From Gammaproteobacteria bacterium (lineage in GTDB: Bacteria; Pseudomonadota; Gammaproteobacteria; Burkholderiales; Gallionellaceae), in assembly GCA_018813765.1 (NCBI GenBank), contig JAHJBC010000007.1, forward strand, positions 186,001 through 250,000: DNA of 64,000 nucleotides, written 5' to 3'. Shown one piece after another: positions 28,922-32,161 of the stretch. Each line of letters begins with the position of its first letter. The stretch's first letter is position 1. The notes beneath the pieces are model-generated. The model was given only the letters and a program-made list of their open reading frames with translations. It was not told the DNA's origin and ran no database searches. The position numbers were made by a program, and so were the translations under genes.

Positions 28922-30201
28922 CATCGCATAATCAGGAACTCTTCGACCAATCCCAGAAACTCATCCCCGGCGGCGTGAACTCGCCGGTGCGCGCGTTCAA
29001 GTCGGTCGGCGGCACGCCGCTGTTCTTCAAGCGCGGCAAGGGTGCGTATGTGTGGGATGCGGACGACAAGCGCTATATCGACTACGTGAATTCCTGGGGT
29101 CCGATGATCGTCGGCCATTGCCATCCCGATGTGGTCAAGGCAGTGCAGGCTGCCGCTGCCGAAGGTCTGGGTTTCGGAGCGCCGACAGCCTCCGAACTGG
29201 AGATCGCCGAGACGCTGTGCAAGATATTGCCGTCGCTTGAGATGGTGCGCCTGGTCAGTTCCGGCACCGAAGCGACCATGACCGCGATCCGCCTGGCGCG
29301 CGGTTTCACCGGGCGTTCGCGCATCATCAAATTCGAAGGCTGCTACCACGGCCATTCCGACGGTCTGCTGGTCAAGGCCGGTTCGGGTGCGCTCACGTTC
29401 GGCCAGCCGAGTTCTTCCGGCGTACCCGCCGAGATCGCCGCGCTGACTACAGTGCTGGATTACAACGATGCGGCCGGTCTGGAAAAAGCCTTTGCAGAAT
29501 ACGGCAATGAGATCGCTGCCGTGATCGTCGAACCCGTTGCGGGCAACATGAACCTGATCCTGCCCAAGCGCGAGTTCCTCGATGCGATGCGCAAGCTGTG
29601 CACCAAGCACGGAGCGGTGCTGATCCTGGACGAAGTGATGTCCGGTTTCCGCGTCGGCCTTCAGGGCGCGCATGGCCATTACGGCATCAAGCCGGACCTG
29701 ATCACGCTGGGCAAGGTGATGGGCGGCGGCCTGCCTGCCGCTGCATTCGGCGGACGCCGCGACATCATGCAATGCCTCGCTCCGCTGGGCGCCGTGTACC
29801 AGGCCGGTACGCTGTCCGGCAATCCGGTAGCAGTAGCAGCGGGACTGACCACGCTGAAACTGGTGCAGGCCCCCGGCTTCTACGAACGCCTCACTCAACT
29901 CGCCAAACAGATGACCGAAGGCATCAGCGCGAGCGCAAAGAAACACGGCATCCCGTTCAGCGCGCAATCCATCGGCAGCATGTTCGGCCTGTATTTCAGC
30001 GCAAACGTGCCGACCACCTATGCCGAAGTGATGGCGAGCGACAAGGCCGCGTTCAACCGTTTCTTCCATGCCATGCTCGCCGAAGGCGTGTATCTCGCAC
30101 CGTCCGCGTTCGAGGCGGGTTTCGTCTCGGCAGCGCATACGGAAGCCGACATCGCGGCGACTATCGCCGCAGCCGACAAGATCTTCGCGGCCTGGAAATA
30201 A
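28918..30201 (+). CDS. hemL: Glutamate-1-semialdehyde 2,1-aminomutase HemL
   Basis: A 427-aa PLP enzyme that makes 5-aminolevulinate in the C5 pathway. It starts [25 protein letters not shown]. The PLP lysine is in [34 protein letters not shown] binds the cofactor. I start at the ATG overlapping the thiE stop; the longer ORF is not family-like. The stop overlaps the engB ATG by one base (TAATG). It acts just after HemA (encoded at 60.7 kb) and before HemB (31.2 kb). Confidence 0.97.
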
Positions 30202-30815
30202 TGGGACTTTTTTCTCAAGCCGAGTTCTACACCACCGTCAATCACATGAAAGACTTGCCGCTGCACGGCGGCAAGGAGGTCGCATTCGTCGGCCGCTCCA
30301 ATGCGGGCAAGTCGAGCGCGATCAACACGCTGGCCAACCACACGCGGCTGGCCTACACCAGCAAGACGCCGGGACGCACGCAGCATCTGAACTATTTCTC
30401 GCTGGGCAACAACAACTATCTGGTCGACCTGCCCGGCTACGGTTATGCCAAGGTCCCGCCGGATGTGCAGGCGCATTGGGAACATCTGCTGAGCGAGTAC
30501 CTGCAAACGCGCGAGGAGTTATGCGGCCTGGTGGTGATCATGGATGCGCGCCATCCGCTGACCGACCGCGACCAGGGCATGCTGGACTGGTTCGCGCCCA
30601 CGGGCAAACCCATCCATATCCTGCTGACCAAATCCGATAAACTGAGCCGCCAGGAATCGACCAGAACCTTGCGCGAAGTGAAGGAATTCCTCGCTGAACA
30701 TTTTCCGCAATGCACGGTGCAGTTGTTCTCCAGCCTGAAAAAACTGGGCATGGATGAGGCTGAAGCGGTGATAGCGGGCTGGTTCGCTGTTGATGCAGAA
30801 AATTCAAATGGCTGA
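30201..30815 (+). CDS. engB: Ribosome-biogenesis GTPase EngB/YihA
   Basis: A 204-aa TrmE-Era-EngA-EngB GTPase involved in large ribosomal subunit assembly. Motifs are G1 [14 protein letters not shown]2 region [11 protein letters not shown]3 [11 protein letters not shown] and G4 LLTKSDKLS. The start overlaps the hemL stop. The ORF track joins it to an upstream frame inside hemL; those residues are not EngB. It is followed by 335 bp of repeats and a candidate sRNA before hemB. Confidence 0.95.
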
Positions 30816-30983: not shown

Positions 30984-31110
30984 AAAAAAATGCCCCTGAA
31001 CCAAAGGGGAAGGTCAGGGGCAAAGTCTTAACAGGGGTTAAGACACCCGCTCAGGGAGGAGAAACGGGAAGCGACTTGCGTCGCTCACTGACTCTGAGTC
31101 GGACTGTGCG
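30984..31110 (-). ncRNA. Candidate small RNA ending in an intrinsic terminator
   Basis: On the minus strand a canonical terminator, TGCCCCTGA...TCAGGGGCA followed by seven T (30984-31022), lies where no minus-strand gene is annotated. Upstream of it on the same strand are hairpins GTCTTAAC/GTTAAGAC and GCGAC/GTCGC, a GACTC/GAGTC dyad, and the unpaired CU-rich run TCTCCTCCCT, which resembles an anti-Shine-Dalgarno seed. A TATTTT -10-like box lies near 31115. The 5' end is estimated. Confidence 0.4.
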
Positions 31111-31117
31111 AAAATAG

Positions 31118-32161
<1,044 letters not shown>

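Follow-up and report, generated by a model that had tools for sequence, protein, structure and literature searches.

In Salmonella, the sigma-E promoters of the sRNA genes micA and rybB carry GGAACTTTT as the –35 element and GTCAAA as the –10 element, and a promoter of this GGAACTT type is conserved with the gene (PMC1804206). MicA and RybB, like ErsA of P. aeruginosa, a sigma-22 sRNA (PMC6321483), are short Hfq-type RNAs that pair near ribosome-binding sites. CU-rich single-stranded sites are also found in betaproteobacterial double-hairpin RNAs, the ncS27/bdhR type (RF02278) and S17 of B. pertussis (PMC5688073, PMC11722255), for which occlusion of the ribosome-binding site has been proposed or shown. 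S17 uses the housekeeping sigma factor and RNase E processing.

Closest to the locus described here is the anti-hemB sRNA (RF02837, also Burkholderia RNA 7), which is already known as such and catalogued across Burkholderiales. In B. cenocepacia J2315 this RNA is ncS04 (292949..293053, 105 nt), which appears on Northern panels, has its 5' end from dRNA-seq and its 3' end confirmed by RACE, is reported to bind Hfq, and showed no significant change across seven conditions (Table 2 of PMC5688073). The homologue of B. pseudomallei is given as a trans-acting RNA (PMC3521395). A review lists Bc7, an RNA copurified with Hfq, for which it gives hemB as the predicted target and names RybB as a homologue (PMC6321483); Bc7 is probably the same RNA as ncS04. 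Discrete, Hfq-bound expression of a ∼105-nt RNA is established only for ncS04 of B. cenocepacia. Although long catalogued, the family has no function or regulator that we could find in the accessible literature.

We analyzed a contig stretch of 64,000 nt (the window). RF02837 matches the minus strand of the window at 30984–31070 with 60.2 bits, against a cut-off of 49.5 (E = 1.4e-11 when the full 64,000 nt are searched), and the match is full-length (model positions 1–81 of 81). No other Rfam family reaches its cut-off anywhere in the window. RF02278 gives no match; the ErsA model scores 16.3 bits (cut-off 50), and MicA, RybB and ErsA resemble this RNA without sharing sequence membership. Two RNAs with C-rich loops show weak similarity, Xanthomonas sX13 (RF02232; 25.5 bits versus a cut-off of 50) and Neisseria NmsRb (RF02877; 21 bits versus 52). 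The spot beside hemB that a first-pass annotation had flagged is a genuine gene for a small regulatory RNA, of the anti-hemB family. That annotation missed both the existing family, with its experimental evidence from Burkholderia, and the sigma-E-like promoter described below. Matches above cut-off occur in 52 of 61 relatives and in 190 genomes of a 300-genome draw from the order. To what is known of the family, our analysis adds a 5' hairpin, the sigma-E-like promoter, a promoter difference in Burkholderia, and two CU loops together with a second copy in the genus.

The predicted transcript is ∼104 nt long (30984..31087, minus strand), an estimate based on the RF02837 match, the 105 nt of ncS04 and a hairpin directly after the promoter; its 5' end is inferred to within ±4 nt. 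The originally proposed extent, 30984–31110, reaches into the promoter spacer at its 31110 end. The RNA lies head-to-head with hemB (31151..32161, plus strand), as had been noted, and engB/ysxC (30201..30815, plus strand) is the neighbor downstream of the sRNA. The label 'antisense' is apt for the orientation only, and the RNA and the coding sequence of hemB do not overlap. Among the strong loci checked in relatives, hemB and/or engB adjoin the RNA in almost all, and nearly all strong copies lie between these two genes. The locus resembles known anti-hemB RNAs in its full-length model match, hemB neighborhood, CU loop and terminator.

To describe the structure, we used an alignment of 41 diverse anti-hemB copies with 24 upstream bases. 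Hairpin 1 (GAGCGAC-GCAA-GTCGCTT; 31069..31086, minus strand) shows two-sided changes in 6/6 pairs, with 94.3% of cells paired, and RNAalifold recovers it unprompted. It lies just before the Rfam start and almost wholly outside the Rfam model, from which the RNA differs in this extra 5' element, in Burkholderia too. Counting back 105 nt from the final T of the tail in B. cenocepacia NCTC13227 (L164) puts the start of the RNA at base 2223. This is 7 nt downstream of TATGAT and immediately ahead of hairpin 1, so hairpin 1 belongs to the transcript. Hairpin 2 (31046..31068, minus strand) follows the Rfam consensus structure. Its stem, CCCG/CGGG (31068–31065/31049–31046), is retained in 98.5% of cells and presents a CU-rich loop containing seed 1, TCTCCTCCCT (31053..31062, minus strand), the complement of the strong Shine–Dalgarno sequence AGGGAGGAGA. 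Of 65 distinct copies linked to hemB, 62 carry CCTCCCTGAG, and CTCC is invariant across the 41 aligned sequences. Hairpin 3 (GTCTTAAC-CCCT-GTTAAGAC; 31025..31044, minus strand) has two-sided changes in 5/7 pairs.

The intrinsic terminator hairpin (30991..31022, minus strand; stem TGCCCCTGACC/GGTTCAGGGGCA) has two-sided changes in 8/9 pairs. Its loop carries seed 2, TCCCCTTT (31003..31010, minus strand), within which CCCCTT is conserved in 60 of the 65 distinct hemB-linked copies, nearly always in the terminator loop; shuffles would give 3.6/76. This second CU motif in the terminator loop is absent from B. cenocepacia. The U7 tail (T7 in DNA; 30984..30990, minus strand) is a likely Hfq contact, given the Hfq binding of ncS04. 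The predicted fold has an energy of –36.1 kcal/mol, versus –18.4 for dinucleotide shuffles (z = –6.3; 0/200 shuffles as stable). Over the whole structure, 126 cells show two-sided changes; shuffles give 32.6 such cells, and sliding the partners gives no more than 39. The minus-strand terminator, hairpins and CU-rich sequence of the first-pass annotation are all present where it placed them, and its anti-Shine–Dalgarno seed does sit in a stem-enclosed loop.

Upstream of the RNA lies a sigma-E (RpoE, ECF)-type promoter, GGAACTA-N17-TCAGA, with its –35 element at 31115..31121 and its –10 element at 31093..31097 (both minus strand). The 17-nt spacer compares with 16 nt in most relatives, and the elements agree with those of Salmonella micA and rybB (PMC1804206). 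A standard sigma-70 scan found no promoter on the minus strand at this locus. In the alignment, upstream regions share GGAACT(T/A) followed at constant spacing by TC[TA]. We therefore asked for [GT]GAAC[TC] at –54 to –42 from the Rfam start and TC[TA] 22–25 nt further, in 73 distinct hemB-linked upstreams other than those of Burkholderia. The box was found at the –35 place in 69 of the 73 (shuffles: mean 0.9, maximum 5). Box and TC[TA] at fixed spacing were found in 66 (500 shuffles: mean 0.11, maximum 2); the pattern was picked after viewing the alignment, which inflates these contrasts with shuffles somewhat, but not to this degree. By group, 29/29 upstreams within the genus and 37/44 outside it have both elements, and the offset of TC[TA], counted from where the –35 box begins, is 23 nt in 44 cases and 24 nt in 21. 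The window's own promoter is a weaker copy, with 8/100 shuffles scoring as well. We used the box-and-spacing test in place of a matrix trained on rpoE promoters; that matrix scored many sRNA promoters poorly, because the first –35 position is T in rpoE but G in the sRNA.

The rpoE gene itself is preceded by the same box-and-spacing layout in 24 of 30 genomes; in the genome analyzed here (G000), the rpoE promoter reads TGAACTA-N16-TCC. In this genome, a promoter-like TGAACT(T/A)-N16-TC motif, conserved in the genus, lies ∼125 nt before the rpoE profile match (L082, on contig C11), and such a motif ahead of the rpoE operon suggests autoregulation. The genome encodes one clear RpoE (312.5 bits, cut-off 236) and an Hfq (97.7 bits). 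RpoE is over cut-off in 258 genomes of the 300-genome draw. Among the listed genomes that lack RpoE and are ≥90% complete, 2/17 (G068 and G192) have an anti-hemB RNA above cut-off, and G267 and G317 are further exceptions, carrying the RNA yet absent from the RpoE list. This co-occurrence is supporting evidence only, being confounded by shared ancestry as well as having exceptions. It also counts against assigning the promoter to RpoE that GGAAC is common to several ECF groups and that the genome encodes four other, distant ECF factors. Regulation of anti-hemB by sigma-E is a well-supported proposal. Our literature search, which covered few subscription journals, found no report linking RpoE to the anti-hemB RNA, and a prior one is possible.

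Burkholderia and its allies differ. At 119 loci of the Burkholderia/Paraburkholderia/Caballeronia/Trinickia type, the sigma-E box is mostly replaced by TGGTATAT(C/G)ATA, an extended –10 promoter of the sigma-70 type. The first Burkholderia-specific pattern that we tried gave no matches. In genomes of this type, TGGTATAT(C/G)ATAnCGATCGAG before the RNA is strongly conserved, and a degenerate GGAAACTTTT is left in some. A sigma-70-type promoter in Burkholderia sensu lato fits the flat expression of ncS04, although loss of the stress promoter explains the missing stress induction in B. cenocepacia only after the fact.

The anti-hemB RNA also has paralogues. A second copy in the same genome (G000:C4:202910-202997, equivalent to L002:1501-1588; 55.1 bits) faces away from a cspA-like cold-shock gene; upstream of it stands TTGACA-N17-TATTCT in place of a sigma-E-type promoter. 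Loci of close relatives (L035, L038 and L040) have the same cspA-linked second anti-hemB-like sRNA with TTGACA-N17-TATTCT. Genus-wide, the paralogues divide into this group beside cspA, whose promoters are of the TTGACA kind, and further copies that mostly have GGAACT promoters. One set away from hemB (L033, L034, L036, L039 and L042), whose members have neighbor genes in common, keeps a GGAACTT-type promoter and carries its second CU motif in the loop of hairpin 3. Of 16 paralogues, 13 have CCCCTT in that loop and not in the terminator. In the 300-genome draw, two genomes (G267 and G284) have six anti-hemB model matches each, which suggests further local expansions.

What might such an RNA pair with? 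A perfect AGGGAGGA-N2-13-ATG occurs 12 times in the genome, versus 3 times for the reversed pattern, and inspection of these 12 matches by eye revealed no obvious porin as an outer-membrane protein target. One gene, acetyl/propionyl-CoA synthetase-like (G000:C12:701928-701944, L274), has CAGGGAGGA as its ribosome-binding site. GGGAGG is retained in 12/16 of its genus orthologues, which makes this gene a candidate target, though such conservation is merely suggestive because strong Shine–Dalgarno sequences may be kept for translation alone. For murE, the site is mostly not retained in genus orthologues.

The arrangement of the locus invites a different reading, in which the RNA regulates hemB in cis, through promoter interference or because it pairs with a long hemB leader that arises by readthrough from engB. 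The engB–sRNA–hemB order is conserved across the order; the sRNA start lies only ∼60 bp from the start codon of hemB, a distance at which the two promoters have to adjoin; within the genus, the sigma-E box has an unusually conserved spacer; and both the family name and the predicted target of Bc7 (PMC6321483) point toward hemB. Yet the hemB ribosome-binding site in most species of the genus is AGGAA(T)AACCATG, which lacks the AGGGAGG seed complement, and on this ground we rejected hemB as a seed target for the genus. Moreover, paralogues away from hemB retain the seed, the seeds are conserved in loops, as for action in trans, and no known hemB leader overlaps the RNA. We consider control in cis unlikely. 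Because the AGGAA of hemB pairs poorly with the seed, heme control is unlikely too, and the name anti-hemB should not be taken as a function; the earlier proposal that the RNA acts on hemB or heme mRNAs thus finds no footing here.

Two further readings concern what is transcribed, and from where. The RNA could be a housekeeping sRNA made from another promoter, with the GGAACT box serving another ECF factor or hemB regulation on the opposite strand. The sigma-70-type promoters of Burkholderia and of some paralogues (TTGACA-N17-TATTCT) would fit this, as would the weak match of the window promoter to the rpoE-derived matrix. But this reading leaves unexplained the fixed TC[TA] spacing and fixed distance to the RNA in the 37 of 44 upstreams outside the genus, the promoter architecture is identical to that of rpoE promoters, and the four further ECF factors of the genome are distant from the RpoE family. 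We regard it as improbable, about on a par with control of hemB in cis. Far less credible is a plus-strand element, such as a hemB leader attenuator or riboswitch, with no minus-strand sRNA at all: the stems do fold on the plus strand and the position upstream of hemB is conserved, but the terminator has its U-tract on the minus strand, and transcription of the homologue yields a discrete sRNA of 105 nt. The minus strand is also favored because, read on that strand, G-U pairs outnumber A-C mismatches by 54 to 16. With terminator, promoter, pairing bias and mapped homologue transcript in agreement, the independent minus-strand sRNA of the first-pass annotation stands.

These considerations lead us to favor, with a probability of roughly 0.7, an Hfq-assisted anti-hemB sRNA that is induced by envelope stress and blocks ribosome-binding sites in trans, with a switch to sigma-70 in Burkholderia. 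RpoE would most likely transcribe the gene from GGAACTA-N17-TCAGA under envelope stress, giving a ∼104-nt transcript with its 3' end at the intrinsic terminator. Hfq bound at the U tail may then expose two CU loops to mRNAs, the CU-rich one of hairpin 2 and the one in the terminator. The RNA would act in trans, blocking translation of those mRNAs that have an AGGGAGG-like ribosome-binding site. Its counterpart in Burkholderia sensu lato would have moved to a sigma-70 promoter and would be made constitutively. On our side, this reading is based on sequence, structure, covariation, promoter conservation, synteny and the presence of rpoE and hfq; expression, transcript ends and Hfq binding come from the work of others on a relative. 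From these we infer RpoE dependence, stress induction, action at ribosome-binding sites and the identity of targets.

A broader view, which we hold with somewhat less assurance though still as the probable one, is that anti-hemB is an order-wide, sigma-E-controlled sRNA with two anti-Shine–Dalgarno loops, an independently evolved counterpart of MicA, RybB and ErsA, whose stress promoter was lost in Burkholderia and which was duplicated and re-wired in the genus. It differs in family, location and promoter from the RF02278 RNAs and S17, which it resembles in its CU-rich sites. For the anti-hemB family, the conserved RpoE-type promoter provides a directly testable regulator. Its presence elsewhere explains why ncS04, the one well-studied homologue, seemed unregulated, and species outside Burkholderia are the place to find the role of the RNA. 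If this reading is true, anti-hemB would be, in betaproteobacteria, the arm of an envelope-stress response through sRNAs that is already known in enterobacteria and Pseudomonas.
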